A DNA stretch of 35,984 nt from a bacterium (GTDB lineage: Bacteria; Electryoneota; AABM5-125-24; Hatepunaeales; Hatepunaeaceae): NCBI GenBank assembly GCA_013202285.1, contig JABMRV010000171.1, forward strand, positions 1 to 35,984, read 5' to 3'. Positions 4,742 through 24,718 of this stretch are shown here, one piece after another (position 1 is the stretch's first letter; each line of letters starts with the position of its first letter). The notes under the pieces are model-generated. The model did no database searches. It worked only from the letters and a program-made list of their open reading frames with translations, and had not been told where the DNA came from. The translations under genes were made by a program, and so were the position numbers.

Positions 4742-6650
<1,909 letters not shown>

Positions 6651-6678
6651 TATCTTTCCTTCTAAGCTGCTTCAGAGC

Positions 6679-6707
6679 TTGACATTTCAACTGGAAAAGT
6701 GTATAAT
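6679..6707 (+). promoter_or_regulatory. Consensus sigma-70 promoter for the envelope-machine operon
   Basis: The -35 box TTGACA (6679-6684) and -10 box TATAAT (6702-6707) are both perfect and separated by exactly 17 nt. Transcription would start near 6714, giving a leader of about 290 nt before the ATG at 7000. An inverted repeat AAGCT-N7-AGCTT (6664-6680) overlaps the -35 box. Confidence 0.88.
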
Positions 6708-6727
6708 ACCTTATTAACCGGCATCTT

Positions 6728-6743
6728 TGTGATAATTATTACA
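6728..6743. promoter_or_regulatory. Possible Crp/Fnr-type operator
   Basis: TGTGATAATTATTACA fits the TGTGA-N6-TCACA pattern of Crp/Fnr-family sites with one change in the second half. It lies about +15 to +30 from the predicted start of the 6679 promoter, where a bound protein would more likely repress than activate. AT-rich palindromes arise by chance, so this is tentative. Confidence 0.35.
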
Positions 6744-6807
6744 CCCGGCTTAGTTTCGATAGATTTTTTGATCAAAATCATTTAATTCTTCGTAAATGCG
6801 TTTATTC

Positions 6808-6887
6808 CTGGGTTGAATTGAATTTAACCCAGACTGAATCATCCTGAAGCGCTACAGCTCTCGATGTCAGGCGTTTTCGTCTGACAT
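6808..6887 (+). promoter_or_regulatory. Two hairpins in the 5' leader of the envelope operon
   Basis: Hairpin 1 is the near-palindrome 6808-6832 (CTGGGTT ... AACCCAG). Hairpin 2 is 6864-6887, ATGTCAGGCG-tttt-CGTCTGACAT, a 10-bp stem with one G-U pair and a TTTT loop. An A/T-rich but broken T tract follows hairpin 2, so attenuation is possible. No known riboswitch is recognised. The rest of 6888-6999 shows no gene. Confidence 0.5.
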
Positions 6888-6999
6888 TTAATTATCAATT
6901 TTCGCACAACCTGAAGTGGTTTATCGGGCGAGGAGAGCATAAACAGGATGAATTTCTGATGTCGAACTGGTATTTTGCAATATAACCTGGAACAGTTGT

Positions 7000-9957
7000 A
7001 TGTCAAATCGTTGCTTGTTGACATTTTTTCTTTCACTGGTCGTGCTGATCTTATACTGTCCTCGACAGGTATCGGCGCAGACTACAGAAAAAGAAGAGTC
7101 CAAGCAGGACGCACAATACCAGGCTCAGACCAGCCTTTACCTCTTCCAACGCAGCCTGGATTTCGAGGCTGAAACCTATCTGAACGAACTCTTCCTGACA
7201 TGGCTTTACGAAGGAATAACCTCTGAAGCCCAAAAGCGTCGTAACGAGAATTTTACTGATACATACGATGCTCTAAGTCTCCTTGATCTCACCACATTTG
7301 AAGACTCCGTTTACGCACTTCCCGACAGGATCGAAGGCGCTTTACTTGACAGCGTCCCTCCCCGGATCAGGTATATCCTCTGGGAAAACCTCCAGCGTGA
7401 AAAGTACAAGAATAAATGTGTTCAGGCTCGACGAATCAAGAACAGGTTGATTAGCACCGGCAATGAACTGCAACTGCAGCGAATGTTCAACGTTGATCTT
7501 GAGTCGGCGATTACCACATACGATAATGGACTCTATCGCCAGGCTGTCATGAGATTCAATGAGATTATCGAACGTTACGATTTTGTGAACCTGGCGGATA
7601 TTATCTACTACCGCGCTGAATGCTACCTCAAGCTCTCGATGTATGAACAGGCTCGTGATGATTATCAGGATGTTTTCAGGACATCTGATGAAGCTCCACT
7701 TCGACGAAGAGCACTGGAGAGATTGATAGCCATCTCCGGCGAAAAAAGCAGCGTCAGAAATCTCAACTATTTCTGGGATAAATATCAGCAGGAAACGTCT
7801 GATGCCCGGGATGAGGACTACTGGCAGACGCTCGAATTAACCGCCAGGTATTTAATGGCATCGGGAGAATGGGCAGGAGCGCGGCAACTGTTCGATATGA
7901 TTTTACCCAAATCAGAGAACTTCATCAGTTCAAAGTTGCTGGCAGCTGACTGCGCTTTGGCTGAATATGTTGAACAACTGTCCATATCGTTTTTCCATGA
8001 TTCCAGCCTTATCGCACTTAACGAAGCCCGGTACCGATATGACGAACTTGCTGAGAAGAAGATTAAGGGTAAGGGGCTCACAAAGGAGATAAGACAGGAA
8101 GCATTGCTGAAGCTGAGCTATCTGGATTATTTGAATGCGGATTATTACGCAGCTTCTGAAAAGGCAAGCCGTATCAAGGCGAAGGGCGAGATCGCTGAGA
8201 AGGCAGTATTGGTCTTAGCCTGGTCACGTTTCAGGGTACACGATTTCGGGGAAGTTATATACCTCTGCAATAAATACTTCAATGATTACCCAGAATCACA
8301 GTATTTCTACGAGGTCTTCTGTCTTCTTGGTTACAGCAAGGAATTGTTGGGCAGGGAAGCGGAAGCAAAGGGTGAGTATGAAACAGTAATGACTGCAATC
8401 GATGACCGGCGTGAGTTTCATGATATAAATTATGAGAAGAAGAACGTCGCCCGCGCTATCGGTGATCTTAGACGGCTTGAACCGAAACTGTTTCTCGAAG
8501 GCAGGCGAGAGCTGTTCGACAAGTACAAGCAGTTGAACTCACAGCTAAAATCAATCTTTGAAAGACTCAAGCTGACCGAAGGAATAAAATCTTCGCCGGT
8601 GATTCGTGAATTGCTTGAGGAACAGAAAGAGCTGTACAGGATTTTTGATGGATTAACATCGATTGAGCAAGAACTTTTTGAAGCCGACGACCGTGGGCTT
8701 ACCAGTAAATATGATAAGATGTATGCCAAGCTGCTCGATTTGGCAACCGAACTTAAATCCGGCATACAATATCACATGACTCAGAAGTCGTTAATACAGA
8801 GGGAAGAGGAGCAGCGTTTTCAGGATCGGTTCGGCGATTCATTGAGGGTACACTTCAAACATGAGTGGAAATCAACCGAGACTTCTCTTCAGCGTGTGCG
8901 AAAGCTGATAGAGGAAGCGGAGGTGATCGGCGATGCCGAGCTTCTCCTCGAACTGGGCGAAATTGAACTCGGTCTCTTAAGCGTTCAGGACAGACTTTTT
9001 GGTGTAAGCACGAGTCTGAGTCGCATCGAATCGCCTGAAATAAACAGTAATCTCGATCACTGGAGCTGGTTTGCTTATCAGCGACATTCCACAGCCGGTC
9101 TGGCTTTCGATTATTTATATATGCGGGAGAACCGGTTGAAGGAACTCGACAATTACGTAGGGAGAATAAACCAGATTATCGCTGAACGCTCTGAGGTCGA
9201 GGAGCAGCCGATAGAACTGGCGGTAAACCTTGTTCCCGCCAGCGAACCCGGAGCTGAACCCTATCGAGCGCCGAGCATTGAATTGTGGGAGCCTCCCGAA
9301 GCAGAGGGTGAACCCGCATTAGATACATCAGGAACCGGTGAAATTCCGCCGGAAGAGATTGGAGAGGAGATAGAACCGGAAGGTATCGAACCGGGAATCG
9401 ATGAAGAAGAAGAGTTACAGGAAGATTTGATCGATCAACCTGAGCCGGGAATAGAAGAACCCGCTGAACAACCACCGGCAGATGTAGAGGTGGTTGAACC
9501 TGATGAGCAGCCTGAAGAGGAAGCGGCAGAAGAGCAGTTAGAGATTGAAGGCGAGCCTGCGGAACAGCCTTCACCGGATGCAGAGATTCAGGAGCCCCCT
9601 TCCGATCAACCTGAGCCGGGAATAGAAGAACCCGCTGAACAACCGCCGGCAGATGAAGAGATGGATGAATCTGGTGAGCAACCTGAAGAGGAAGCGGGAG
9701 AAGAGCAGTTAGAGGTTGAAGGCGAGCCTGCGGAACAACCTTCACCGGATGCAGAGGTTCAGGCACCTCCTTCCGATCAACCTGAGCCGGGAATAGAAGA
9801 ATCCGCTGAACAACCGTCAGCAGATGAAGATGTGGATGAATCTGGTGAGCAGCCTGAAGAGGAAGAGGAAGCGCCAATAGAACCGGAAGAAGACGAAGGA
9901 AGTAAAGCTGGCGATGGAGAGATTTTAGGGGATGCGGGATGGGGGCAGGATAATTGA
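7000..9957 (+). CDS. Secreted TPR protein with acidic repeat tail
   Basis: This 985-aa protein begins with a Sec signal peptide of about 26 residues (hydrophobic LLTFFLSLVVLILY, likely cleavage after VSA). Residues from about 165 to 450 contain degenerate TPR helices, for example YRQAVMRFNEIIERY and IIYYRAECYLKLSMYEQA. Residues 480-690 are charged and probably coiled coil. From about 734 the chain becomes extremely Glu/Pro-rich with three 57-aa repeats, and it ends AGWGQDN. There is no catalytic motif. It is the first gene of the operon that ends with ExbB, two ExbDs and a TonB-like gene, so a periplasmic scaffold role is inferred. The long extended acidic tail could span or bind envelope layers. 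The ribosome binding site is weak. Confidence 0.85.
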   Translation: MSNRCLLTFFLSLVVLILYCPRQVSAQTTEKEESKQDAQYQAQTSLYLFQRSLDFEAETYLNELFLTWLYEGITSEAQKRRNENFTDTYDALSLLDLTTFEDSVYALPDRIEGALLDSVPPRIRYILWENLQREKYKNKCVQARRIKNRLISTGNELQLQRMFNVDLESAITTYDNGLYRQAVMRFNEIIERYDFVNLADIIYYRAECYLKLSMYEQARDDYQDVFRTSDEAPLRRRALERLIAISGEKSSVRNLNYFWDKYQQETSDARDEDYWQTLELTARYLMASGEWAGARQLFDMILPKSENFISSKLLAADCALAEYVEQLSISFFHDSSLIALNEARYRYDELAEKKIKGKGLTKEIRQEALLKLSYLDYLNADYYAASEKASRIKAKGEIAEKAVLVLAWSRFRVHDFGEVIYLCNKYFNDYPESQYFYEVFCLLGYSKELLGREAEAKGEYETVMTAIDDRREFHDINYEKKNVARAIGDLRRLEPKLFLEGRRELFDKYKQLNSQLKSIFERLKLTEGIKSSPVIRELLEEQKELYRIFDGLTSIEQELFEADDRGLTSKYDKMYAKLLDLATELKSGIQYHMTQKSLIQREEEQRFQDRFGDSLRVHFKHEWKSTETSLQRVRKLIEEAEVIGDAELLLELGEIELGLLSVQDRLFGVSTSLSRIESPEINSNLDHWSWFAYQRHSTAGLAFDYLYMRENRLKELDNYVGRINQIIAERSEVEEQPIELAVNLVPASEPGAEPYRAPSIELWEPPEAEGEPALDTSGTGEIPPEEIGEEIEPEGIEPGIDEEEELQEDLIDQPEPGIEEPAEQPPADVEVVEPDEQPEEEAAEEQLEIEGEPAEQPSPDAEIQEPPSDQPEPGIEEPAEQPPADEEMDESGEQPEEEAGEEQLEVEGEPAEQPSPDAEVQAPPSDQPEPGIEESAEQPSADEDVDESGEQPEEEEEAPIEPEEDEGSKAGDGEILGDAGWGQDN
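9433..9870 (+). repeat. 171-bp (57-aa) tandem repeats in the acidic tail
   Basis: Copies start at 9433, 9604 and 9775, each with a gatcaacctgagccgggaat core. The period is exactly 171 bp, so the frame is kept. Each unit reads DQPEPGIEE...AEQP...EQPEEE. The third copy is incomplete and runs into a Glu-rich end. Near-identity of the DNA points to recent duplication. Confidence 0.85.
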
Positions 9958-9959
9958 GC

Positions 9960-12900
9960 ATGAGTTATTTGTCACAAAATAAATATAGACTACGCATAGG
10001 AAAGCGCCGACATTCCTGTCGGCAAAGGCGGATAATCCCGCAGCTGCGGGACGCTCTTCCCCTTCTCCTGTTGGTGATAATTTTACTGACAGTTCCGCAG
10101 GGATCGCATGCAATCGACCTGTTCGGGTTAGACGATAAGCAGAACAAGGGTCTGGAGCTATTACCGGATGACTTGCGGGAGCGTTGGCTTAGTATTATAT
10201 CCCATGCTGATTCGGCAGATGTTGATGCATACCTCGCTGAAGGCAGAAAAGTCATTGACCAATTAGAGAAACTTATCGAAGTCATCGGTGGGGAAATTCC
10301 TCAGCCGGGTGCTGCCAGCTATCCCGTTTATGTGAGTACGATGACTGACCTGGTTAAACTGCTTGATCGTATCGAAATGGCAGCAGTTTTAACCATGGCA
10401 GATGATGAACACCTGAATGAGCTTAGAAGAAAATACCGTGCAGAGCGAGAGGAACTTCAGGTCGAAATACGCACTGATCGGCAGAATCTGATTCAGAAGG
10501 GAAGCGAAAGACTGCGTGTTCACACTCGCGATGCCGATTACCGCAAACATATACATAAAAGAGCTGTGGTCGCTGATCTATATTTCAGGATGGCTGAGCT
10601 GATGTATCAGGAGGCTGAAGCCAGATTCGGTGATGAACTTGAGACATATACTAACAGATTCAACGAACTTGTCGAGACCGATCCAGCTGCAGCAGTCAGA
10701 CTACCACGTCCTCAGAAGGATTTCAGTCAGGTACTGACTATGTACCGACGTATCTTCGATGAGTTTAATGAGACACAGTACGGCATCGATGCGCTGTATA
10801 ACCTCGCTTTCATCTTTTCAGAGTCGGAGGATCCCAACGACCGGGAGACGGCGAACTCATATTTTGAAACACTGATTGAACTTCATCCGGGTAATAGATA
10901 TACTCTTAACGCCTTGCGCAAGATCAGTGATTTCTATTTTGCTCCTGTCGAAGGCGATCTTGAGCTTGCCACTGAACACACCCGAAAAGCAATTGAAGCA
11001 TTCAACAGGATAGTCAATGATTTCCCTGATTCGGATTACTACATCTTTGCCATGTACATGCTCGGCTGGTCCTATTATAAACTGAGCGATTTTCCCAATT
11101 CTGTGGAGAGTTTCGCCAAGACGCTCGACATGGATTACCTGTTTGACGGAACGCTGCGGGACAAGGGAGATGAGAATGACTTCACAGATGATGCGACACG
11201 TTATCTGGGGATATGTTTCTCAGTTAAAACAGACGAATGGGAGGGCGCCGGTGTGGATGGGCTGGTGAGATGGCTGGAGGAGCATCCCGAACGTCTGCGG
11301 GACTACGGTGCGACGGTTCTTGACACACTGGCTGACATTTTCACAATCAATCGCGGGCAGTATTTCGAGGGCGTGTATGCCTATTCCAAGTTCGTGGAGA
11401 TGTTTCCCCTTCATCCCAAAGCCTGGGAAGCCCAGAGGAGTATAACCGAGATCTTTCTTGAGGAAAAGATAAGCGACCCCGAGAGAGCTTTCGAAGAGGT
11501 AATCAAGTTATTTGATACATATAATCCGGACAGCGAGTGGTGGGCTGCAAACCCTGATCAGATTATAAGAAACCCGGTTGTGCCGGTTCTGGAGGATTAT
11601 CTCAATAAAATCATCGACGAGTATCTGAACACCGGATGGGAATCGAATGACGTCGAGAAATTGGAGAAGTTCGAGCATTATGCGCGTCAGTACCTCCGGT
11701 TTTGGCCCGCTGGACCGCATGCCTATGATATCCATTCTAACCTGGCGATTGTTCTCTTTGAGAAACTGAACCGCCCTGCTGAGTCGATACGTGAACATTG
11801 GCAGGTTGCCACTGCCTATGAGAACAGGGAACAGATGGAGATCTCCTGCAATACTGTTGTTAAGATTGCAATTCTGTTTGCCAAGCAGGAGTTGAATGGC
11901 GAGATCTACATTTCCGATGAAGGTGATATCCTGTCGCCGGAGATGGCGCCTCCCAAAGAAGAAGTCATAGCTGTTGAAGATACTGTAAAGCGGGATCCAC
12001 TCAGTCTTGAGCCGGATATTCATCGTACCGACCTTTTGAATTCCGAGCGGCTTGAGCTGGCTGCATTCGATCTCTACATGGATAATTTCCCTGACGGCAA
12101 TCTGATCGAAATTATCCTCTATCGAGCCGGCGAGTTCCTTTATAAGCGTGATTGGATTGAGGAATCGAGGTATTATCTCGAAAGATATATAAGGGAGTTT
12201 CCCGAAGGCAAAAACTTCGAATCAGCATATACTTCCCTGTTTGACGGTTATTTCAGGGGTATCGATCTCGGCGGAGTAGAGGAAGTCGCGGAACGTATAA
12301 TGCAGTCGCCGGACCTGTCGCGGGAGTTGAAGCAGACAGTACAAACGAATAAAGCGATAGCAATGTTCAGAAACGCGAAGGGACTGGAACAAGTGGATGC
12401 ACCGGTACTGGCTGCCGATGAGTATCTCCGCGTAGCAATGCAATGTCCGAATTGGGAACGTGCCGATGCCGCTCTGTATCTGGCGGGTATGCAATATACG
12501 AAGGGCAGTGAGTTTGAGAAATCTAACGAAGCCTATTTCAAACTCATCGAGAATTATCCCCGATCAGACCTTGCTCCCACAAGTCTTTACAATGCGGCAA
12601 TCAACCAGCAGAATTCCCTGATGCTCTTTTCAGAGGCTGCCCAGACATTTGAGAGGCTAAGCAGGGAATATCCGGATGCGGAGGTGATTAAAGATGCACT
12701 CTCCTTTGCTTCGGTTAACTTTGAGAAAGCAGGAAAAGCTCGCGATGTAATCCGCATCAATGAGAAATTCCTTTCACTCTACCCCGACCATCCCGACGCT
12801 GACCTCTACCTGTTTGAAATGGCAAAGCACTACCTGTCGCTCGACGATTTCGAAAGTGCCAACAACATATATCTCAGATTTGCAGAGAAGTATCCGAACG

Positions 12901-15900
12901 ATCCACGTACAATCCAGGCATATTTTGAACGCGCAACCTATTATCTGGGCAAGGGCAACCAGAGGAAAGCGGCAGCGGAGTACAGGCAGACGGTTGAAGC
13001 TCACGATCTACAGGTGGCAGAGGAATTGCCGGGTAATAAGAATTATGCTTCCAGATCGCTGGCGAAACTTCTCGCATGGGAGCACGTGGAATACGACAAA
13101 CTGAGATTCAAACTTCCGCTCGGCAACCTTAGAGCATCCACGCATCGAAAAGAGGAATGGAAAAACTCACTTACAGCCAAATATGAAAAACTAATAGGGT
13201 TGAGGCAGAATGAAGCCTGGCAGGGATTCTATGCCATTGCACGGTTATGGGACGATCAGGCGCGGGCAATTTATGACCAGGAGATACCCAGGATTTCAAA
13301 GCAGGACAGCCTGAATACGTATATCGATGTAGTCGTTGTTGACAGCGCTATTATCACCAATAACTACACTATCGATTATTATAAATATGCTTATCAGCAG
13401 CTCGATACCGCCCGGATTCAGTTGGCAGAAGCGAAGAATGCGTTTCAAGCTGAGCATGATCACCTAATTACCTACCAGCGGGAATATGAAGAATGGAAAC
13501 TGACAAACAGTGTGGCGGTCGAGGATACTGCTTTGGCTGCAGTAATCGACAGCGCTAATACCGATGTTCTTGCCGATTCATCCGCAAAGCTGAAAGCTCT
13601 AATCGATCTACTTGCCGAGACCGACACCTCTATTACGGAAGCGGAGAAGTGGGCTGTTGTCTGCCGCAGGCGGATTCCAGAACTTGCAGTGCTCAACGGT
13701 GATTACCTCGTGCGTTCCTTCATGTTAAGGTTTGGGAAATATGAACCGATTCTCCGTGAGAAGGATGAGGAAGTCAAGCTGGAGGGGCGTGAGTTAGTTA
13801 TAAAAGATCAGTTACTGCCATTCGTTCCGGAGGTGTGCGGTTACTATTTACAGGCAATCGATCCCATTGTTGAAACCGGTGTTGATGTTGATCAGTGGAT
13901 ATCTCGTCTGGACAGCAGTTTCTCCTTTGTGGTCGATACATTGTTCAGTCAGTGGGATGAACAGTTTGAAACCACACGCAAGCGGATCGACGAATACGCG
14001 AGAGAATATGATGTAATTCTGCCCAAGTGGGAATTCGCTACCTCCAGGGAAGGCTTCCTGAAGGAGATGATGGGTGATCGAATTCTCTACTGGATTGATA
14101 AGCTGCATCGGTTTAACATGGAAAAACTCTCGGCTTACGAAGAAGTACTTGATACTGTCTCTCATTATAACCGTCCGGTGGGATTTGCCGAGGAATCGCT
14201 GCTAAGACCTCTTGAATATGTTCTGGTGCAGTATGATGAATATGAGGAACGCTTTGTCGAAGCTGTTCTGAAACAGGATGAATATGCCAGGACATATGAA
14301 GAGAATCCCACATGGTTCGACAGGGAGTTCGAGGAGGAAATTGACGCATACTGGTGGGATGACGCAATAATCGCTTATGAGGAGATTGAGCATTCCTATG
14401 AAGATTATGGGATAGGAATTCTCGAGAGAGGGCTGGATATAAAGGAGAAGTTCAACCTCATCGGTCTGACTGGTATAGCCATTCTGCGCAAGCTCGTCGA
14501 GCTAAGACCGGATGAATATGCGGCGAAAGTAGGAATAGAACCCCAGTACTTTGTGATAGTCAGCTCTCCGGAGTGGCTGATCTGGCCCATTGAGGAGGAC
14601 TTTTTTACCGATGTTGATTTCGATGATTCCTCGTGGGAACATGCACATCCATCTGCATTTCCAGCAGGTTCGAATTTCACCAAGCTCGACAGCCTCAGCG
14701 CTACCCCCATCTGGTATCAAATGTTCGCTCCTCCGGCGATTCCCGAGTGGTCGGAGTATCCGATGGATGAAGTTATTGGCATAGAGGGTGAACTCATCGA
14801 ATTCACTGTTGTCGGTATAGCACCTGAACGAGGTGAAGAGGACGAATGGGGTGAAGATGAATGGGAAGAGGACCTGGTCTGGGATGAGATACCGGAAGAT
14901 GTGATAACTGTGACCGAGGGTGAACCGATTGAATTCTCTGTCAGCGGCAGCGATTCCTGGGAGAGTGAGCTGACTCTCAGTCTCTTCTCCGAAAATCTGC
15001 CTGATGTGACGGAGTTCACAGATAATGGGGATAATTCGGGTAGTTTCAGCTGGCAGACTAAAGAAGGAGATGCCGGTAGTTACACAATGACGCTTGAACT
15101 GACGAGCGATGAAGATTTCATCGAACGGGAGGTTACTCTTGAAGTACTCCCACTCAAGGAAGCTCAGCCTGATACACTACTTGCTGAACCGGATGTAGTT
15201 GAGGAAATTCCTGAGCCTGAAGAGGAGAAACCACTGGCTCCACCTGCCGAGCTAAGTATAGTCTATTCATCCGAGAATATACCTTCTGAGGAGTCGGTCT
15301 TCATCGACGAGGGAGATGGCAGGGGTACGTTTATGTGGACTCCTTCATTTGTTGCCGCAGGGGAGTACACTGCAACATTCACACTGTACAATTTCAACAT
15401 CCCTGCAGAGATGACCGTGTTCATTACTGTTGAGAATACAGATCGTGGCTTTGCCTGGACAGCGTTTCCCGATTCGCTCGATGTTGAAGAGGGCATGGTT
15501 GTAGAATTCAAGGTTGCCGGTGAAGATCCCGACGGCGATGAATTGTTCATTGATTACAGCTCTGAAGACATCCCCTATGAAGCGGAATTCATCGATAACG
15601 GTGACGGAACAGGGTTATTCAGATGGGAGACAACATGGGAGGATTCGGGCTCCTACACTGCTGCATTTACACTGACGGACGGTGAGAACGTTCTGGACGA
15701 CAATGTTGCAATTCATATCACGAACGCAGTCCGGATGCCTCGCTTGATCGATGTTCCCGACTCAATCGAGGAATATGAGGGTTCAGTCATCGATTTAATT
15801 TTCAGTGGCTCTTCACCTGATGAAGAGATGCCAGTGATCACATCCCGAAACGTCGGGATGCCCGAAGAGGCGGTTTTCGTAGATCAGGGAGATGGAACTG

Positions 15901-18107
15901 CTACGTTTGTCTGGGAGACGACTTACGAGGATTCCGGGCATTACAGCCTGCACCTTGAAATATCCAATGTAGATACAACCGTCATTTATGATATTCCGAT
16001 ATGGATTAAGAACGCCACGCGTTCACCCCGCTGGGTGGATCTGCCCGATGGAGATGTAACCGCTGAAGAAGGCTCACTGATTGAGTTTTTTGTTAAAGGA
16101 GAGCATCCCGACAACCTGGAATTATCCATTATATACTTCTCAGGCGATCTTCCCGAAGTGGCAGGATTTACTGACAACGGCGACGGGACGGGATCGTTCA
16201 ACTGGCAGACTGCAATTGGCGATTTGAATACCTATATTGCTTCTTTTGCTCTTTCCGATGTAGAGACTACCGTTGTAGCCGATGTTCAGATTGTAATCAG
16301 AGGAGCTACTCCACCTCCGGAATGGATTGAGATACCGGAGGAAGTCCAGGTGGAAATTGAGTCGATAGTTGAATTCGCCGTTAAGGGGAGCGATCCTTCC
16401 GGGCTGGAAGTTACAATTGAATACAGCAGTGAAACCCTACCTGATGTGGTTCAGTTTGCGGATTTAGGTGATGGCACAGGCTCATTATCATGGCTGACGA
16501 CTGCTGAGGATGAAGGCAGATACAGTGCAGTTTTTGTAATCTCAAATGGGAAGACTTCCGCCACAGCAGAAACGGTTATCATTGTCGGTTTACCCACACC
16601 ACCGCCAGAATGGACGGATGTCCCCACGGATGTTGCCGGTGATGCAGGTTCACTGATTGAGTTCACAGTTGTCAGTATCGATCCATCAGGGAACGCCGTA
16701 TCTATTGAGTACACGGGTGACCTGCCGGATATAGCGCAGTTCACTGACAACGGCGATGGGACGGGATCGTTCAACTGGCAGACTTCGTCTGAGGATGAGG
16801 GCAGTTATGTAGCATCGTTTGTTCTGTCGAACGGTGAGCTGACCGCATCGGCGGAGGTGATTATTGTAATAGGCGCTGCCGCACAGCCTCCGGAATGGAC
16901 GGAACTTCCCACAGATGTATCCGGTGAAGCCGGCACGATAATCGAGTTCACGGTATCCGGAACGGATCCTGCAGAACAGCCGTTGACCATCGAATACAGT
17001 CCTGGCGATCTTCCCGAAGCGGCACTATTCACTGACAACGGCGATGGGACGGGATCGTTCAACTGGCAGACTTCGTCTGAGGATGAGGGCAGTTATGTAG
17101 CATCGTTTGTTCTGTCGAACGGCGAGTTGACCGCATCGGCTGAGGTGATTATTGTAGTAGGCGCTGCTGCACAGCCTCCGGAGTGGACGGAACTTCCCAC
17201 AGATGTATCCGGTGAAGCCGGATCAATAATTGAGTTCACCATCGCCGGAACAGATCCAGCGGGACAGCCGTTGACCATCGAATACAGTCCTGGCGATCTT
17301 CCCGAAGCGGCACTATTCACTGACAACGGCGACGGAACGGGATCGTTCAGTTGGCAAACCTCGTCTGAGGATGAGGGCAGTTATGTCGCTTCCTTTGTTC
17401 TATCCAACGGTATGCTCACCGCATCGGCTGAGGTGGTGAGCGTTATAACCGAAAAGCCCGATCAAGCTCCGGTATGGGTGGACATTCTTGAGTTTACGGA
17501 AGTTAATGAGAATGAGACGTTAGAGTTTACCATAGTCGGAACGGATCCGGATGATGATGCGGTAATCATCGAATTCAGCTCGGATGATATACCGGAGGCG
17601 GCACAGTTCAGTGACAATGGCGACGGATCGGGGACATTCATCTGGCAGCCGACATACATGGATGCAGAGAGCTACAGCGCCGGATTTATCCTCAGAAGTG
17701 GTGAATTGTCATCTGAAGCGAAAACGGTCACGATTCAGGTTAACAATGTAGATCAACCGCCTGAGTGGATATTGATTGAAGAGACCGTCACAGGCGACGA
17801 AGGCTCATTAATCGAGTTCGAAGTACTGGGGCTCGATGCCGATGGTGATGAAATTACGATCTCTTTCAGTTCCGACAATTTGCCTGAGACCGCCGTGTTT
17901 ACCGATCTTGGAGAAGGCAGCGGTACATTCTCCTGGCAGACAACATTCGATGATGCCGGTGGATATTCACTTACATTGGTATTGCACAGCAATGATATTT
18001 CGACAGAAGCGGTTATAAGTATTACTATCAATGATGTTGAACAAGCACCTGAGGAACTGCAACCGGAGCCGGAAGGTGAGGATCAGGTTAATCCGGAGGG
18101 TGAATAG
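9960..18107 (+). CDS. Giant secreted TPR plus Ig-like repeat protein
   Basis: This 2715-aa protein starts at ATG 9960, with AGGA 9 nt upstream; an in-frame TTG at 9954 is the alternative. Residues 1-49 form a long signal peptide with a basic n-region, the core LPLLLLVIILLTV and likely cleavage after GSHA. About 260-1020 hold many TPR units of the YbgF/BamD style, such as AMYMLGWSYYKLSDFPNSVE. About 1020-1525 are helical and charged. About 1525-1590 look like the start of a jelly-roll (DFDDSSWEHA, then ATPIWYQMF). From 1592 to 2695 there are about 11 full repeats of roughly 96 aa, each with P-EW, IEF, DNGDGTGSF-W and SY-ASF-LS; this is an Ig/cadherin-like (He_PIG-style) pattern. A short Glu/Pro tail ends the protein. 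A periplasmic or surface structural partner of the downstream ExbBD-type motor is inferred. Confidence 0.88.
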   Translation: MSYLSQNKYRLRIGKRRHSCRQRRIIPQLRDALPLLLLVIILLTVPQGSHAIDLFGLDDKQNKGLELLPDDLRERWLSIISHADSADVDAYLAEGRKVIDQLEKLIEVIGGEIPQPGAASYPVYVSTMTDLVKLLDRIEMAAVLTMADDEHLNELRRKYRAEREELQVEIRTDRQNLIQKGSERLRVHTRDADYRKHIHKRAVVADLYFRMAELMYQEAEARFGDELETYTNRFNELVETDPAAAVRLPRPQKDFSQVLTMYRRIFDEFNETQYGIDALYNLAFIFSESEDPNDRETANSYFETLIELHPGNRYTLNALRKISDFYFAPVEGDLELATEHTRKAIEAFNRIVNDFPDSDYYIFAMYMLGWSYYKLSDFPNSVESFAKTLDMDYLFDGTLRDKGDENDFTDDATRYLGICFSVKTDEWEGAGVDGLVRWLEEHPERLRDYGATVLDTLADIFTINRGQYFEGVYAYSKFVEMFPLHPKAWEAQRSITEIFLEEKISDPERAFEEVIKLFDTYNPDSEWWAANPDQIIRNPVVPVLEDYLNKIIDEYLNTGWESNDVEKLEKFEHYARQYLRFWPAGPHAYDIHSNLAIVLFEKLNRPAESIREHWQVATAYENREQMEISCNTVVKIAILFAKQELNGEIYISDEGDILSPEMAPPKEEVIAVEDTVKRDPLSLEPDIHRTDLLNSERLELAAFDLYMDNFPDGNLIEIILYRAGEFLYKRDWIEESRYYLERYIREFPEGKNFESAYTSLFDGYFRGIDLGGVEEVAERIMQSPDLSRELKQTVQTNKAIAMFRNAKGLEQVDAPVLAADEYLRVAMQCPNWERADAALYLAGMQYTKGSEFEKSNEAYFKLIENYPRSDLAPTSLYNAAINQQNSLMLFSEAAQTFERLSREYPDAEVIKDALSFASVNFEKAGKARDVIRINEKFLSLYPDHPDADLYLFEMAKHYLSLDDFESANNIYLRFAEKYPNDPRTIQAYFERATYYLGKGNQRKAAAEYRQTVEAHDLQVAEELPGNKNYASRSLAKLLAWEHVEYDKLRFKLPLGNLRASTHRKEEWKNSLTAKYEKLIGLRQNEAWQGFYAIARLWDDQARAIYDQEIPRISKQDSLNTYIDVVVVDSAIITNNYTIDYYKYAYQQLDTARIQLAEAKNAFQAEHDHLITYQREYEEWKLTNSVAVEDTALAAVIDSANTDVLADSSAKLKALIDLLAETDTSITEAEKWAVVCRRRIPELAVLNGDYLVRSFMLRFGKYEPILREKDEEVKLEGRELVIKDQLLPFVPEVCGYYLQAIDPIVETGVDVDQWISRLDSSFSFVVDTLFSQWDEQFETTRKRIDEYAREYDVILPKWEFATSREGFLKEMMGDRILYWIDKLHRFNMEKLSAYEEVLDTVSHYNRPVGFAEESLLRPLEYVLVQYDEYEERFVEAVLKQDEYARTYEENPTWFDREFEEEIDAYWWDDAIIAYEEIEHSYEDYGIGILERGLDIKEKFNLIGLTGIAILRKLVELRPDEYAAKVGIEPQYFVIVSSPEWLIWPIEEDFFTDVDFDDSSWEHAHPSAFPAGSNFTKLDSLSATPIWYQMFAPPAIPEWSEYPMDEVIGIEGELIEFTVVGIAPERGEEDEWGEDEWEEDLVWDEIPEDVITVTEGEPIEFSVSGSDSWESELTLSLFSENLPDVTEFTDNGDNSGSFSWQTKEGDAGSYTMTLELTSDEDFIEREVTLEVLPLKEAQPDTLLAEPDVVEEIPEPEEEKPLAPPAELSIVYSSENIPSEESVFIDEGDGRGTFMWTPSFVAAGEYTATFTLYNFNIPAEMTVFITVENTDRGFAWTAFPDSLDVEEGMVVEFKVAGEDPDGDELFIDYSSEDIPYEAEFIDNGDGTGLFRWETTWEDSGSYTAAFTLTDGENVLDDNVAIHITNAVRMPRLIDVPDSIEEYEGSVIDLIFSGSSPDEEMPVITSRNVGMPEEAVFVDQGDGTATFVWETTYEDSGHYSLHLEISNVDTTVIYDIPIWIKNATRSPRWVDLPDGDVTAEEGSLIEFFVKGEHPDNLELSIIYFSGDLPEVAGFTDNGDGTGSFNWQTAIGDLNTYIASFALSDVETTVVADVQIVIRGATPPPEWIEIPEEVQVEIESIVEFAVKGSDPSGLEVTIEYSSETLPDVVQFADLGDGTGSLSWLTTAEDEGRYSAVFVISNGKTSATAETVIIVGLPTPPPEWTDVPTDVAGDAGSLIEFTVVSIDPSGNAVSIEYTGDLPDIAQFTDNGDGTGSFNWQTSSEDEGSYVASFVLSNGELTASAEVIIVIGAAAQPPEWTELPTDVSGEAGTIIEFTVSGTDPAEQPLTIEYSPGDLPEAALFTDNGDGTGSFNWQTSSEDEGSYVASFVLSNGELTASAEVIIVVGAAAQPPEWTELPTDVSGEAGSIIEFTIAGTDPAGQPLTIEYSPGDLPEAALFTDNGDGTGSFSWQTSSEDEGSYVASFVLSNGMLTASAEVVSVITEKPDQAPVWVDILEFTEVNENETLEFTIVGTDPDDDAVIIEFSSDDIPEAAQFSDNGDGSGTFIWQPTYMDAESYSAGFILRSGELSSEAKTVTIQVNNVDQPPEWILIEETVTGDEGSLIEFEVLGLDADGDEITISFSSDNLPETAVFTDLGEGSGTFSWQTTFDDAGGYSLTLVLHSNDISTEAVISITINDVEQAPEELQPEPEGEDQVNPEGE
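10006..10051. repeat. Paired palindromes inside the giant gene's signal-peptide region
   Basis: GCCGACA-ttcc-TGTCGGC (10006-10023) is followed by the perfect 16-bp palindrome TCCCGCAGCTGCGGGA (10036-10051). Together they encode most of the basic n-region before the hydrophobic core of the signal peptide. The second palindrome resembles the 16-mer at 4680 and 33179. Confidence 0.75.
14733..18042 (+). repeat. Array of about 11 Ig-like repeat units
   Basis: Each unit encodes about 96 residues with a shared DNGDGTGSF-WQT core. Copies beginning at 16881 and 17169 are spaced 288 bp apart and nearly identical in DNA, and the unit at 16596 shares long identical stretches with them. Outer units are more diverged, so the array seems to have grown from the middle. 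The unit around 15725-16010 is atypical because a palindrome at 15841 replaces the usual Y-S-S strand. Confidence 0.85.
15841..15860. repeat. Hairpin CATCCCGA-aacg-TCGGGATG inside an Ig-like unit
   Basis: An 8-bp perfect stem with a 4-nt loop lies inside the giant gene. It encodes SRNVGM at the place where sister units have a strand such as YSSEDIP or YSPGDLP. It belongs to a TCCCGA/TCGGGA hairpin type also seen at 22178 and 25961. Confidence 0.6.
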
Positions 18108-18817
18108 TGGTTTTTGATACGATAAACCATAGTATGCCAAGCGGTTTTCATCTCAACGGGATGAGACTTGTAATCTGCTGGCTGACTGCATTGCTGATAG
18201 CTGTCAACTCTCCACTGCCGGCGCAACCGGTCGATGAGCCGGAAGCGTCTGTGGAGGAAGATATGATTTCCGAAGAGGAAGCCATTTCCAGTGAAGATTT
18301 GGCTCTGCGCATAGCTGAGGAAGCCGATTCTCTATGGAACGTCTGGATGTCGACTGAATGGGGCAAGAGAACTTATTACTTCAGACGATCGTTCGAAATT
18401 CAGTATGAGCCTGCTGGTGGTAAGATCATGTTGACAGCCGATGATAATTGGAGTCTATATATCAACGGGAACGCCATTCAGTATGATACTGAAGATGAAC
18501 TCGACTGGTCGGAAGTAACTGAAATCGACATCAGTAAATACCTCGTTGTTGGAAAAAACACGGTAACCATCCAGGTTGATGATATTGACAACACGCAGCA
18601 TGGACTTATAGTCGGAATTGAATACTCCACCATTCCGGACCTTGAGAGCAAGCTCATTGTCATGGAGCAGGAGGCTCTTGCAGAGCAAAGAAAATATCAA
18701 GAGGTTAGCATCCAACGGCAGGAAGCCGAACGTGCTCTGCAGGAGAGCCAGCAGTCACCTTTGACCGAAGCGGAGATGCATGAAATACGTTCAATTGAGA
18801 AAAACAAATTGGATTAA
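18107..18817 (+). CDS. Secreted jelly-roll (sugar-binding-like) protein with coiled-coil tail
   Basis: The protein is 236 aa. The GTG start shares its first base with the stop of the giant gene and has a CGGAGGG site upstream; an ATG at 18161 would also give a signal peptide (MRLVICWLTALLIAVN, cleavage near PAQ). The domain at about 75-180 has the order YYFRRSFE, LTADDNWSLYINGNA, then IDISKYLVVGKNTVTIQV. This is the pattern of galactose-binding-like beta-sandwich domains such as those in GH2 and rhamnosidase proteins. The end (about 185-225) is a Glu/Gln/Ala-rich coiled coil. There are no catalytic residues. Stop-start overlap with the giant protein suggests they work together; the ligand is unknown. 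Confidence 0.75.
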   Translation: MVFDTINHSMPSGFHLNGMRLVICWLTALLIAVNSPLPAQPVDEPEASVEEDMISEEEAISSEDLALRIAEEADSLWNVWMSTEWGKRTYYFRRSFEIQYEPAGGKIMLTADDNWSLYINGNAIQYDTEDELDWSEVTEIDISKYLVVGKNTVTIQVDDIDNTQHGLIVGIEYSTIPDLESKLIVMEQEALAEQRKYQEVSIQRQEAERALQESQQSPLTEAEMHEIRSIEKNKLD

Positions 18818-18826
18818 GTGAGAATC

Positions 18827-19132
18827 ATGAGAACTTCAGCATTATTCCTGATCGTTTCTGGACTTTTGCTCTTCGTATCTTTCAGTGTTACGGAGGCACA
18901 GGAAGGGGTTGATCTTGGCGTAACCCTTGAGATCGTACTTGAACCCGAGAAACCCACGGTAGTCGTTACCATCACTCGCCAGGATCCCGATATTACAATC
19001 GGCGAATTAAGACGTCCGAAGGGCTCTTCTTTGTTCAGTAAACCATCATCAGTAAAACCGCATTTAGCAGATATTGAGATAGATAAAATTAAGAAACCTA
19101 AAAAAATGCTTGCGAAAGTGCGGGAGCACTGA
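18827..19132 (+). CDS. Small secreted protein of unknown function
   Basis: This protein is 101 aa from ATG 18827; an in-frame GTG at 18818, directly after the previous stop, is possible too. The N-terminus RTSALFLIVSGLLLFVSFSV is a signal peptide with likely cleavage after TEA. The mature part has a short beta-rich stretch (LEIVLEPEKPTVVVTITR) and a basic C-terminus rich in Lys and Pro (IKKPKKMLAKVREH). I do not recognise the family. It sits between the jelly-roll gene and the ExbB-type gene, so it is probably a periplasmic accessory of the same machine. Positions 19133-19251 hold no gene; a TTGACT at 19197 lacks a matching -10. Confidence 0.6.
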   Translation: MRTSALFLIVSGLLLFVSFSVTEAQEGVDLGVTLEIVLEPEKPTVVVTITRQDPDITIGELRRPKGSSLFSKPSSVKPHLADIEIDKIKKPKKMLAKVREH

Positions 19133-19251
19133 TTATATTCCAATGGTTTTGGTAAACTCATCTGTGGAGCTTTTCAAGAAAATCCTTAACCATCTATTGA
19201 CTTTTCGCTTTTTTTAACCTTTCGGAAATAAACAAACAAACGGAGGCGAAG

Positions 19252-19902
19252 TTGAATATCCTCGATCAATTCTTTGAGATGTTTAAACCATCCCCCACCG
19301 GAGGTCATTACTTCATGTGGGTAATTCTCTTGTTCTTTATTGCTGCAGTAGCGATAATGATCGAAAGGTGGGTTTACCTTTGGGTAAGATCCAACATCAG
19401 TGCTGAGCGTTTCATGGCAGAGATAAGGAAGCTGGTCTCAGCCGGTGATTTCAAGAAGGCGATGGCTCTCTGCAAATCTGCTGGGAAGAAGGCGCTTCCG
19501 CAGGTCATATTTAAGGCTCTTGAAGTTGCCGAGCGCAGCGACATGGTTGACTACCGTGCCGTTCAGAACGCGATGGACGAGGCATCGCTTGAGATCATCC
19601 CCCGGCTGAACAAACGTATTAGCTGGCTTTCACAGCTTGCTAATATCGGAACCCTGACGGGACTGTTAGGAACGATCTTTGGGTTAATCCAGTCATTTGC
19701 TGCTGCGGATGCTGCCGGCGGTGGTTCAACTTCACTTGCGGCTGGTATTTCCGTAGCGATGTTCACCACCATGTGGGGACTTACAGTTGCTATTCCCGCA
19801 ACAATCGCTTACCAGTTCACTTCCAATAAGTCGCAGGAGATAATCGACGATATCGACGAGCATTCTGTTAAACTTATTCACTTATTAACCGGAGCGAGAT
19901 AA
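19252..19902 (+). CDS. MotA/TolQ/ExbB family proton channel
   Basis: This is the stator channel subunit of proton-motive-force-driven envelope motors, 216 aa with three transmembrane helices (about 21-43, 126-150 and 165-190). The family motif LTGLLGTIFGLIQSF and the MWGLTVAIPATIAYQF segment are present. Thr141 and Thr173 match the two conserved channel threonines of E. coli ExbB (148 and 181) by local alignment. The start is TTG 19252, with CGGAGG upstream. It is followed without a gap by two ExbD-type genes, so the complex should be complete. The ExbB, TolQ or AglR subfamily cannot be told apart from this sequence alone. Confidence 0.93.
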   Translation: MNILDQFFEMFKPSPTGGHYFMWVILLFFIAAVAIMIERWVYLWVRSNISAERFMAEIRKLVSAGDFKKAMALCKSAGKKALPQVIFKALEVAERSDMVDYRAVQNAMDEASLEIIPRLNKRISWLSQLANIGTLTGLLGTIFGLIQSFAAADAAGGGSTSLAAGISVAMFTTMWGLTVAIPATIAYQFTSNKSQEIIDDIDEHSVKLIHLLTGAR

Positions 19903-20532
19903 GTGCCTGCAGAAAAGCCATCAAGCCGACGGAAACAGGAGGAGACAGGGGGCGATCTGAATCTCACTCCCATCATGAATCTGATGGTGGTGTTGATCCC
20001 GATGCTTATTCAGGTTGCAGCCTTTACCGAGTTGGCTCTTCTTCAGTACATGCCACCTGCAGAAGCTGATGATAGTGGTGATAGTGGTGATCAGGACGAT
20101 GAGGATAAGACTCCGGATGAAGAAGAGATCAGTAATTTAGACCTCATTGTTAACCTGGTTGCCAACAACGTCATCCAGGTCAGCATGTTCAATACGACGG
20201 AACTTGGAGACAAGTTCTACGAGATTCCCGAATCGGCTGGATTTTATAACATGAAAGCCCTGCAGGACAGCCTGTATAGTATAAAGAAGAATATCGTCGG
20301 TGAATCGACTGGAATGGATTCGACCTGGGCGGATGAGATGGATTCCACCAAAGGGTGGATACCGTTCAAGACTTACAAATACAAAGACGGTCGTGATGTG
20401 AAGCTCACGGCAATCGGCATCACACCGTTCCAGACCATCATCAAGACCATGGATGCTTTGCTGTTCATCGAGCAGAGTAACGGGGAAAAGCACGAGTTGT
20501 TTCCCCAGATTGTTCTGACAAAGCTGGGCTGA
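19903..20532 (+). CDS. ExbD/TolR-like protein lacking the channel Asp
   Basis: This 209-aa protein starts at GTG 19903, immediately after the ExbB-type stop, with GGAG upstream. It has one N-terminal transmembrane helix (about 22-48) preceded by LNLTPIMNLMVVLIP. In ExbD/TolR the matching motif has Asp, which carries the proton; here it is Asn26. A very acidic linker follows (DDSGDSGDQDDEDKTPDEEE), then a periplasmic domain with FQTIIKTMDALLFIE, typical of ExbD. The loss of Asp suggests it is a structural or regulatory partner of the second ExbD. The family call is secure from layout and motif; the subfamily is not. Confidence 0.85.
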   Translation: MPAEKPSSRRKQEETGGDLNLTPIMNLMVVLIPMLIQVAAFTELALLQYMPPAEADDSGDSGDQDDEDKTPDEEEISNLDLIVNLVANNVIQVSMFNTTELGDKFYEIPESAGFYNMKALQDSLYSIKKNIVGESTGMDSTWADEMDSTKGWIPFKTYKYKDGRDVKLTAIGITPFQTIIKTMDALLFIEQSNGEKHELFPQIVLTKLG

Positions 20533-20576
20533 TTGTGGAATACGTTTCAATCGCCGATTCATAGGAGGGATTTAGA

Positions 20577-21110
20577 ATGGTAATGGTGCCTTCCAAGGCA
20601 GCAGGCGCTTCCAAGGCGAGCGGCAAGCGAAGGAAACCGAAGTGTGGACTGCAACTGAACGCGATGATGGATATGATGACGGTTATCCTGTTGTTTCTTA
20701 TCAAGTCGTATTCTGCTTCCGGTGCGCTAATTCAAGCTTCCGACTTCATTGATCTTCCGACAGCACAGCGAGATATGGAGCCCAAGAAAGCTCTTGCTCT
20801 TATTGTAGCAAACGGCAATTCCGATCCGAGTGTGGAACAGCAGTTCGGAGTATTTGAGGATATGCCTAAGAATATACGGCAGATCTGCGACAGAACAGAG
20901 ATGAGTACCGATTATGTCGTGTTGCCCGGGTTGTCAGCCTACCTGCAGGAACAGACTGATTTCAGGGAGAAAACCGGCGCCATGTTCACTGGTGAAGTTA
21001 CAATACAATGCGCCGATAATGTTCCATACGACTGGCTGCTGAAGGTGATAAACACCTGCGGACAGCAGGAGTATGCAACGATTGATTTCGTAATTATTAA
21101 AACCAAATAA
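20577..21110 (+). CDS. ExbD/TolR-like protein with intact channel Asp
   Basis: This is the second ExbD-type subunit, 177 aa from ATG 20577 with AGGAGG upstream. After a basic N-terminus (SGKRRKPK) the single membrane helix begins LQLNAMMDMMTVILLFLIKS, with Asp32 at the proton-carrying position. The usual Pro before it (as in LTP) is replaced by Ala. The periplasmic part contains VTIQCADNVPYDWLLKVINT, matching the ExbD pattern. Together with the Asn-bearing paralogue upstream it probably forms a heterodimer inside the ExbB-type pentamer. Myxococcus AglQ/AglS is a known case of two such proteins with one channel. Confidence 0.85.
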   Translation: MVMVPSKAAGASKASGKRRKPKCGLQLNAMMDMMTVILLFLIKSYSASGALIQASDFIDLPTAQRDMEPKKALALIVANGNSDPSVEQQFGVFEDMPKNIRQICDRTEMSTDYVVLPGLSAYLQEQTDFREKTGAMFTGEVTIQCADNVPYDWLLKVINTCGQQEYATIDFVIIKTK

Positions 21111-21124
21111 TCTGGGAGGTCAAC

Positions 21125-22153
21125 ATGGCTCAGGCGATGACTTTCCCGAAAGAGCTTGAGAAAAACTTTTTCCGCGATATGGATCGTTTCTTTGCGGGAG
21201 TTTCTGTCATAACATTTCTCGTCTGTGTTTCCTTTACCGGGTATATGCAGTCTCTTCCGGTAAGACCGCTTACTGCAGAAGATGTGCTGGCATTCAATCA
21301 AGCGATTTACCGGACACAGATCAAGCAAGAGACTGCTCCTGTTGCCCCGGTCAGCGATGCCGGAAGTCAGGCTACAAGTGCTGAAGATACACCTGTTGAA
21401 GAAGCCGAGGAAGAGGCTCCGGCAAGAGAGATAACCCAGGCGGAGAGGGATGCTGCCAGGGCGCAAGCGAGAGCAGTTCGACAGGCTCGGGCACAAGCCA
21501 AGATTGCAGCAATTGCAGCCCGGTTGAAGACCCTGACCGGACCGACTGCTCGAGGTAGAGGAAGCCGGCGCGGAGCTACTGCCCGCAGAGCGGTGAAACT
21601 GACCAGCGGCGGTGGCGGCAGCGGAGATATCAAGGATGCTCTGGCGCTTGTCGGAGACGCCAGCGGCGTCGCCAGAGTGAAACAACTGCGCGGTGGAGGT
21701 GCAATCTCCGAAGACATCGGGGACTTTGACATTTCGGACCTTAGGGGTTTCCTGTCGGATCCAAGTAATCTCGATGCGATGCTCAATGAAGCCAAGATCA
21801 AACTGTCCAAGAAGAGCATCACAGCAAAAGGTGGTTTAGGCACGAAGCGTAAACAGCGAAGTCCTGGTGTTGTCAGCCAGATAATTCAACAGAACAAGAA
21901 CCAGGTGGTTTACTGTTACTGGACATACAAGAGACGCGATTCGAGCCTGAAGGGGCAGGTGATGATTGAGTTCACGGTTGCACCTGATGGCAATGTAATA
22001 GCGGTCAATTTCAGGAAGAGTAAGTGGGGAGGTAATCCGCTGCGAAAGGATGTTGAAAAGTGCATCAAGAATGTTATTATGCAATGGCGGTTTGCACCCA
22101 TCGACAAGAAGGATGGTAATGTGAAATTCACCACCACGTTCATGCTTCAATAG
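21125..22153 (+). CDS. TonB-like / AgmX-type envelope transmitter
   Basis: This 342-aa protein starts at ATG 21125 with GGGAGGT upstream. A short cytoplasmic N-terminus and one membrane helix (about 24-44) come first. An acidic stretch (EEAEEEAP) and an Ala/Arg-rich, probably helical or extended region (about 105-160) follow. Then comes a Gly-rich linker with TSGGGGSG. The last 95 residues form a TonB-C-like domain: QNKNQVVYCYWTYKRR, LKGQVMIEFTVAPDGNVIAV, CIKNVIMQWRFAP. This fits the AgmX/PglI C-terminal domain described in myxobacteria. It would carry force from the ExbB/D motor to outer-envelope partners encoded upstream. It is the last gene before the terminator. Confidence 0.85.
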   Translation: MAQAMTFPKELEKNFFRDMDRFFAGVSVITFLVCVSFTGYMQSLPVRPLTAEDVLAFNQAIYRTQIKQETAPVAPVSDAGSQATSAEDTPVEEAEEEAPAREITQAERDAARAQARAVRQARAQAKIAAIAARLKTLTGPTARGRGSRRGATARRAVKLTSGGGGSGDIKDALALVGDASGVARVKQLRGGGAISEDIGDFDISDLRGFLSDPSNLDAMLNEAKIKLSKKSITAKGGLGTKRKQRSPGVVSQIIQQNKNQVVYCYWTYKRRDSSLKGQVMIEFTVAPDGNVIAVNFRKSKWGGNPLRKDVEKCIKNVIMQWRFAPIDKKDGNVKFTTTFMLQ

Positions 22154-22177
22154 GACTGCTTTGATGCCTTAACACCG

Positions 22178-22194
22178 TCCCGACTTATTCGGGA
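22178..22194. repeat. Intergenic TCCCGA-cttat-TCGGGA hairpin
   Basis: A 6-bp perfect stem with a 5-nt loop lies between the AgmX-like gene and its terminator. The same stem type occurs inside coding sequence at 15841 and 25961. Confidence 0.55.
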
Positions 22195-22204
22195 TCGATC
22201 ATAC

Positions 22205-22230
22205 GGGGCTGTCGTCAGGCAGCCCCTTTT
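22205..22230 (+). terminator. Intrinsic terminator of the envelope operon
   Basis: GGGGCTG (22205-22211) pairs with CAGCCCC (22220-22226) around an 8-nt loop and is followed by TTTT. Flanking ATAC (22201-22204) can also pair with GTAT just after the T-run. It lies 51 nt after the AgmX-like stop and before aspS. Confidence 0.85.
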
Positions 22231-22274
22231 CGTATGGGTTGAAAATCTTCAACCTTACAACATGGAGGAGACTA

Positions 22275-24325: not shown

Positions 24326-24354
24326 TTGACAATTTGTTAGGTATTGATTAAGTT
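24326..24354 (+). promoter_or_regulatory. Probable promoter for the lipoprotein-LysM pair
   Basis: A perfect -35 TTGACA is at 24326-24331 in the same AGCTTGAC context as the promoters at 6679 and 35521. At 17 nt spacing the -10 would be TAAGTT (24349-24354), which is weak. Transcription would start about 40 nt before the ATG at 24401. Confidence 0.45.
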
Positions 24355-24400
24355 TGAAATAATAGAAAATGTATTTTGTCCAATTAAAAGGGGAGATTTC

Positions 24401-24718
24401 ATGGTTAAACCGCGGAGGGTGACCACCGTGGTACTTACTCTGGTGTTCACCGCGAGTCTGTTGACTTCCGTTGGCTGCACCAAGTATGCCAGCCAGGAAG
24501 ATCTGCAGCAGTTGGAAGCGGCGAGAAAAGCAGCCATTTCTGCTGAGAAGGAACTGGAGAAGACCAAAGATGAGCGGAAGATGGTCGAGCAGGAGCTTGC
24601 CGAGAAGGAAGCTGAGCTGAAGACTGTCCAGGATGAACTCGCATACGTTCAGGCTCATGTAGATACCACTGCCTGGGAGGAAGCTGGGGAAGAAGCTGAG
24701 GAGGAGACGAATGAATAA
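24401..24718 (+). CDS. Small coiled-coil lipoprotein
   Basis: This 105-aa protein starts at ATG 24401 with GGGGAG upstream; a longer frame from 24344 is unlikely. The signal peptide TVVLTLVFTASLLTSVGC has a lipobox with Cys26. The mature chain is nearly all heptad-patterned Glu/Lys/Ala (for example SAEKELEKTKDERKMVEQEL) and ends in an acidic tail. It recalls Lpp-like or other envelope-spanning coiled-coil lipoproteins, but no named family is certain. Its stop overlaps the start of the LysM gene by 8 nt, and both carry coiled coils, so the two may act together at the cell wall. Confidence 0.8.
   Translation: MVKPRRVTTVVLTLVFTASLLTSVGCTKYASQEDLQQLEAARKAAISAEKELEKTKDERKMVEQELAEKEAELKTVQDELAYVQAHVDTTAWEEAGEEAEEETNE

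Follow-up and report, generated by a model that had tools for sequence, protein, structure and literature searches.

The question raised by this locus is what kind of machine results when genes for an ExbB/ExbD-type motor and a TonB-like protein are combined in one gene run with very large secreted proteins, and whether such a set of partners belongs to a known system. The window, i.e. the whole stretch of 35,984 nucleotides that was analyzed, contains eight open reading frames that extend from position 7000 to position 22153, all on the plus strand (as are all features of the cluster described below unless noted), with successive gaps of -4, -1, 0, 119, 0, 44, and 14 bases. They are preceded by a sigma-70-type promoter-like site (6679–6707; TTGACA-17-TATAAT, 12/12 consensus), which ranks best among the 32 promoter-like matches in the region (22.5 are expected by shuffling). 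They are followed by an intrinsic terminator-like hairpin with a T-rich tail (22205–22226; nine pairs, seven of which are G-C), the strongest of 11 such hairpins; with 13.7 expected, their number does not exceed chance. The single promoter, eight co-directional genes, and single terminator described in an earlier note on this DNA were thus confirmed by ORF, promoter, and hairpin scans, and the spacing and conserved order of the genes indicate that all eight would be expressed as one transcript. An Rfam scan of the leader gave no match, and an 11/12 promoter-like site is located on the minus strand at 6979–7006, overlapping the start of the first gene. The cluster is flanked by atpD/atpC upstream and aspS downstream (window 4763–24035). 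Downstream of aspS, a small lipoprotein-like gene (24344–24718) lies beside a gene for a secreted coiled-coil protein with a LysM domain (24711–25553), and this region is followed by phoH, 7TM-HD, ybeY, CNNM/CorC, radical SAM, and RNase E/G genes.

The first four genes of the cluster encode predicted exported proteins. D1 (7000–9957; 985 amino acids) is a secreted TPR protein, as indicated by TPR matches and a signal peptide recognized by eye, and is a candidate for the GltC type. Because the window D1 sequence itself does not match the GltC model, it was tied to GltC via its homologs: GltC is matched by 6 of 17 aligned homologs from other loci (best E-value 1e-30), and the D1-type protein of KSB1 locus L064, found by the Electryoneota D1 profile at 1e-74, matches GltC at 9e-12. 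G2 (9954–18107; 2717 amino acids) is a GltD-type secreted protein that comprises a TPR part (residues ∼1–1600) and 11 Ig-like repeats (TPR_6 1.7e-18, Big_9 9.5e-16, He_PIG 1.2e-12). Its assignment is based on gene position and our own HMM (E-value 5e-21 for Bdellovibrionaceae locus L132, stronger for others); TPR matches alone are weak evidence, and no GltD model in the library matched. G2 homologs adjoin motor genes in other phyla, and no relative of this giant protein was found in viral contigs. The TPR part of G2 is constant, and the number of Ig-like repeats varies, from 11 in the window to 0–6 in relatives, with none in most of them. The Ig array appears to be a local elaboration. Given this range of 0 to 11 repeats, the Ig-bearing giant can be ruled out as the defining partner, and the role of special moving partner that had been proposed for it was not borne out. 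J3 (18107–18817; 236 amino acids) is a secreted β-sandwich protein of the GH2-N/rhamnosidase type according to domain matches (predicted model with pLDDT of 69) and is possibly sugar-binding. It is encoded by a separate gene in the window and near relatives, and in KSB1, Latescibacterota, and others the domain is fused C-terminally to the GltD-type protein. An enzymatic function of J3 was ruled out, as it resembles only the N-terminal β-sandwich of GH2 enzymes and rhamnosidases. The fourth protein, S4 (18818–19132; 104 amino acids), was identified by ORF call as a secreted protein, and a small secreted gene directly before AglR is common across loci (about 90–150 amino acids in many of them).

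The next three genes encode the motor subunits. The AglR/TolQ-type channel subunit (19252–19902; 216 amino acids) matches MotA_ExbB at 1.3e-25. Its pore residues Thr141 and Thr173 are conserved across all triplets examined, and in a profile alignment with solved TolQ, the position of a TolQ Glu is occupied by Val168 (codon 19753–19755). ExbDa (19903–20532; 209 amino acids) is an axle subunit of the AglQ type in which the proton-binding Asp is missing. It matches ExbD at 8e-4, which is below Pfam's cut-off, and 31 of its 34 homologs match ExbD. The predicted model of ExbDa (pLDDT of 85; all AlphaFold models are of monomers) contains one transmembrane (TM) helix and an ExbD-like domain, with TolR (5by4) as the best, weak fold match (E-value 0.02). 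ExbDb (20577–21110; 177 amino acids; ExbD 5.8e-9) is an AglS-type axle subunit, in which Asp32 (codon 20670–20672), invariant in alignment A2, is the predicted single proton site. The last gene encodes a GltG/AgmX-type transducer (21125–22153; 342 amino acids) with a TM helix at residues ∼21–41 and an AgmX/PglI C-terminal domain at residues 248–341. It scores 66.5 bits with NF033768 (cut-off 40), matches GltG at 2.5e-11 over the C-terminus, and reaches 42.8 bits with the full-length GltG equivalog (cut-off 650 bits). According to a TM scan, it does not contain the N-terminal cytoplasmic part with the FHA domain, and its TM helix DRFFAGVSVITFLVCVSFTGYMQS does not have the SHLS His of TonB. The GltG model search in Myxococcota found no genome above the cut-off. 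Matches to the AgmX/PglI C-terminal domain are abundant in individual genomes (31 in Plesiocystis genome G061, 18 in G062, and 15 in G067), so there may be many more machines with such a transducer.

This set of proteins leads to the identification of the operon as one that is predicted to encode the 'Group B core complex' of the Myxococcus Agl-Glt/Nfs machines. The core complex comprises GltC, GltD, GltE, GltG, AglR, AglQ, and AglS, which are clustered in non-gliding bacteria, where their function is unknown (Luciano et al. 2011, PMC3169522). The earlier note had recognized the partner set in no named system, but it corresponds to this published complex (PMC3169522): the TPR neighbors of the motor in other phyla match GltC and GltE models, and the TonB-like protein matches GltG/AgmX. 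The note missed the Asn that replaces the proton-binding Asp in the first ExbD-type subunit, and its more general proposal of a proton-motor-driven, force-transducing envelope machine is supported by our results. Two unlike ExbD-type genes adjoin aglR in the window, as the core complex requires. The proton-binding Asp, reported for both AglQ and AglS of M. xanthus, is not present in both of them (Asn26 in the AglQ-type and Asp32 in the AglS-type subunit), and because it is missing from the AglQ-type subunit, the cluster was classed as a core-complex variant. A separate GltE TPR lipoprotein is absent from the window; in locus L090 a separate third TPR gene is present and matches GltE at 7e-32. 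None of the Group A gliding genes (GltA, B, F, H, I, J, and K), MglA, or AglZ is seen within the cluster. The 2011 core complex includes an unnamed 'additional gene', to which the S4-type gene may correspond.

The distribution of the cluster was analyzed in 174 fetched loci, 92 of which hold all six families, and in 84 of these 92 the genes follow the order GltC-GltD-AglR-AglQ-AglS-GltG on one strand. In these 84 loci both TPR proteins adjoin the motor genes, which is the opposite of what was to be expected if, as the earlier note considered, the giants were never next to the motor in relatives. Relatives were found by a pattern scan based on the ExbB alignment (ExbD alignment A2 was too divergent for one), and a system match at 1e-8 or better was obtained for 93 of 386 sampled genomes, in a sample that is weighted to the relatives of the window, consists mostly of MAGs, and does not include gammaproteobacterial cores by name. 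All nine genomes from the family of the window encode the second ExbD, as do some others in its phylum. The neighborhood in the family has the order atpDC - D1 - G2 - (J3) - S4 - ExbB - ExbDa - ExbDb - TonB - aspS, and the same island, including atp and aspS, is shared by Electryoneota, Calditrichota, and KSB1, a distribution that suggests vertical inheritance of an old locus. In total, the gene after the TonB-like gene is aspS in 37 loci, and the gene before D1 is atpC in 21; some of the loci overlap. Clusters with the same order also occur in Latescibacterota, Myxococcota (including Plesiocystis pacifica), Nitrospinae, Desulfuromonas, and others, and rearranged versions are found in Bdellovibrionota.

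In a profile alignment with solved ExbD and TolR, Asn26 of ExbDa (codon 19978–19980) aligns with D25 of ExbD and D23 of TolR, and it corresponds to D28 of AglQ. The subunit was assigned as AglQ-type because in the gliding-type myxobacterial loci L151–L153 the gene that follows AglR encodes 157–162 amino acids and the Asp of L151 is residue 28, which fits the published AglQ of Myxococcus xanthus (162 amino acids, PMC3169522; D28); this match was made by homolog length and residue number. In the AglS-type protein of L152, the Asp is residue 50. The D28N substitution in AglQ abolishes proton conduction, gliding, and sporulation in M. xanthus (PMC3858216), so ExbDa appears to carry, as its normal state, the residue that paralyzes Myxococcus. 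In the other ExbD proteins of the window's genome (a pair on contig C260 and one on C146), the Asp is kept. Seven residues after Asn26, ExbDa contains Pro33 (codon 19999–20001).

A consistent residue pattern became apparent when 163 AglR-AglQ-AglS sets were scored, 162 of which are scorable at the AglQ position. This position is occupied by Asn in 113 sets, Asp in 35, Ser in eight, Ala in three, and Gly in three, with one gap, so the AglQ Asp is lost in 127 of 162 motors, including that of the window. As these motors come from many genomes, a sequencing or assembly error was ruled out as the cause of the loss. At the AglS position Asp is present in 161 of 163 sets and Gly in two, and there is no scorable motor in which both Asp residues are missing: the two losses in AglS, in L106 (2600–3840) and L109 (10706–11830), combine Gly in AglS with Asp in AglQ. 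The Pro at +7 is present in 125 of 127 Asp-less AglQ proteins versus none of the 35 Asp-type proteins, and AglR has Glu at the TolQ position in 21 of 35 Asp-type motors versus 1 of 127 Asp-less motors. The AglR tree shows seven changes of the Asp state, four of them on well-supported branches, and Pro switches along in all four cases; with only four independent switches, the Asp–Pro link is consistent but too sparsely sampled for significance (sign test, p = 0.125). The link between AglR Glu and AglQ Asp is strong by count, but on the tree it cannot be separated from descent. Two Electryoneota genomes (L037:4473–5075 and L044:15170–15772) have regained the Asp in AglQ and lost the Pro inside an Asn-type clade. 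In a member of Fibrobacterota (Chitinivibrionales; L078:10787–12103), a second ExbB/AglR copy is fused to an Asn-type AglQ in which the Pro is present (438 amino acids), and this fusion adjoins separate genes for ExbB (255 amino acids) and AglS.

We propose, with a probability of about 0.7, that the product of the operon is a stand-alone machine of the core Agl-Glt type, which has a one-proton-site AglQ-AglS axle and passes force via the GltG-type protein to a TPR scaffold. In such a motor, five AglR subunits would surround one AglQ-type and one AglS-type subunit. The pairing of the two within one AglR pentamer is proposed because an AglQ2 axle would be without a proton site in most species and an AglS2 axle would be without one in L106 and L109. 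A different arrangement, which we consider unlikely, would comprise two kinds of axle, with AglR-AglS homodimers doing the proton work and the AglQ-type protein serving as a peptidoglycan anchor or regulator outside the pore. The retention of Asp in 161 of 163 AglS proteins is in agreement with this arrangement, and the ExbD-like periplasmic domain retained by AglQ makes an anchoring role conceivable. However, the TM helix of AglQ is strongly conserved, with position-specific Asn, Ser, Ala, or Gly and the Pro; in L106 and L109 the AglS homodimer would be dead; the L078 fusion implies a mixed AglR ring with the axle tethered to it; and D28 of AglQ is needed in Myxococcus (PMC3858216). In the heterodimeric axle, AglS alone would take up the proton, and AglQ, with its Asn and a Pro in the helix, would be fixed in a neutral, protonated-like state. 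The use of MotB D22N to mimic the protonated state (PMC9389320) is a precedent for such a probable locking of AglQ. The passage of one proton through the AglS site would then turn the axle by 72° instead of 36°, and a single working site would correspond to five protons per turn and not 10.

At the other end of the machine, the GltG-type protein would span the periplasm and transmit force to a TPR scaffold of the GltC/GltD type that lies close to the outer membrane; a contact between AglR and GltG has been shown in Myxococcus (PMC3169522). Through its Ig-like and sugar-binding-like domains, the scaffold could move or tension a surface or envelope polymer. The nature of this load, the weakest step of the proposal, is suggested by the sugar-binding-like J3 and by the analogous Nfs machine, whose load in Myxococcus is spore-coat glycan (PMC3858216). 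Another reading is a true machine for gliding or for motility by surface adhesion, in which the Ig-bearing giant would be an adhesin. It fits the homology with Agl-Glt and would account for the Ig-like and sugar-binding-like domains of the exported parts. It is nevertheless quite improbable, since Luciano 2011 (PMC3169522) argues that gliding is not driven by the core by itself and that Group A genes, none of which is seen in the cluster, were added for it, and since most relatives do not have the Ig array. Gliding itself is not part of the inferred function. The least probable of the readings considered is a housekeeping system of the Tol-Pal or Ton type, for outer membrane tethering or uptake, that has drifted only in its partners. 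The folds of AglR, ExbD, and the TonB-like protein are homologous to TolQ/ExbB, TolR/ExbD, and TonB, there are TPR matches to YbgF/CpoB, and the conserved place beside atp and aspS suggests a basic function. At the same time, the eight cluster genes include no TolB, Pal, or TonB-dependent receptor, the TM helix of the TonB-like protein does not have the SHLS His, the transducer domain is AgmX/PglI and not TolA, and separate ExbB/ExbD sets are located on contigs C146 and C260 of the same genome. Beyond the single locus, the core Agl-Glt-type machine of the window may represent a large class of proton-motive-force-driven motors, with an obligate AglQ-AglS heterodimer as the axle, one proton site, the other side locked in a protonated-like state, and ∼5 protons per turn. 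In several FCB phyla, these motors would serve a core envelope function of ancient origin, and the gliding AglRQS with its two Asp residues would be one branch of the class. For this broader proposal, we see the chances for and against as balanced.

When the window is compared with known systems, the closest counterpart is Agl-Glt/Agl-Nfs of M. xanthus (PMC3169522, PMC3858216), with which it shares AglR, AglQ, AglS, a GltG-type transducer, and TPR proteins of the GltD and putatively the GltC type, clustered as in the non-glider core. However, the AglQ-type subunit of the window does not have the Asp that is essential in Myxococcus, its transducer does not have an FHA domain, there is no separate GltE, and the window adds an Ig array, a β-sandwich protein, and the fixed place between atp and aspS. 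The ExbBD-TonB and TolQR-TolA 5:2 motors have in common with the window the pore Thr residues, ExbD-type subunits, and a TonB-like C-terminus, but in the window the two axle genes differ from each other and have one proton site between them, the SHLS His is missing from the transducer TM helix, and the AglR Glu is replaced by Val. The vWA force transducers encoded beside tolQ and paired tolR-like genes (PMC12204202) are similar in their TPR gene, one tolQ-like gene, and two unlike tolR-like genes, but the window transducer ends in an AgmX/PglI domain and not in a vWA fold. All 5:2 motors are modeled with two proton sites that alternate and with 10 ions per turn, and whether AglQ and AglS form homo- or heterodimers was stated to be unknown (PMC9389320). 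No report of a one-site motor was found in the open-access literature; as far as this literature shows, neither the one-site axle nor the ancient fixed locus of the FCB phyla has been described, and the partner set is already known. A widespread natural one-site motor, in which the change that paralyzes Myxococcus is the normal state, would make both the dimer question and the question of ions per turn testable. The 2011 survey reported the core complex in Proteobacteria and one Fibrobacter (PMC3169522), and the range of phyla observed here is much wider, so the spread of this core of the Myxococcus gliding machine goes far beyond what was reported. Its fixed locus beside the ATP synthase genes in FCB bacteria argues for a basic envelope role that predates gliding.
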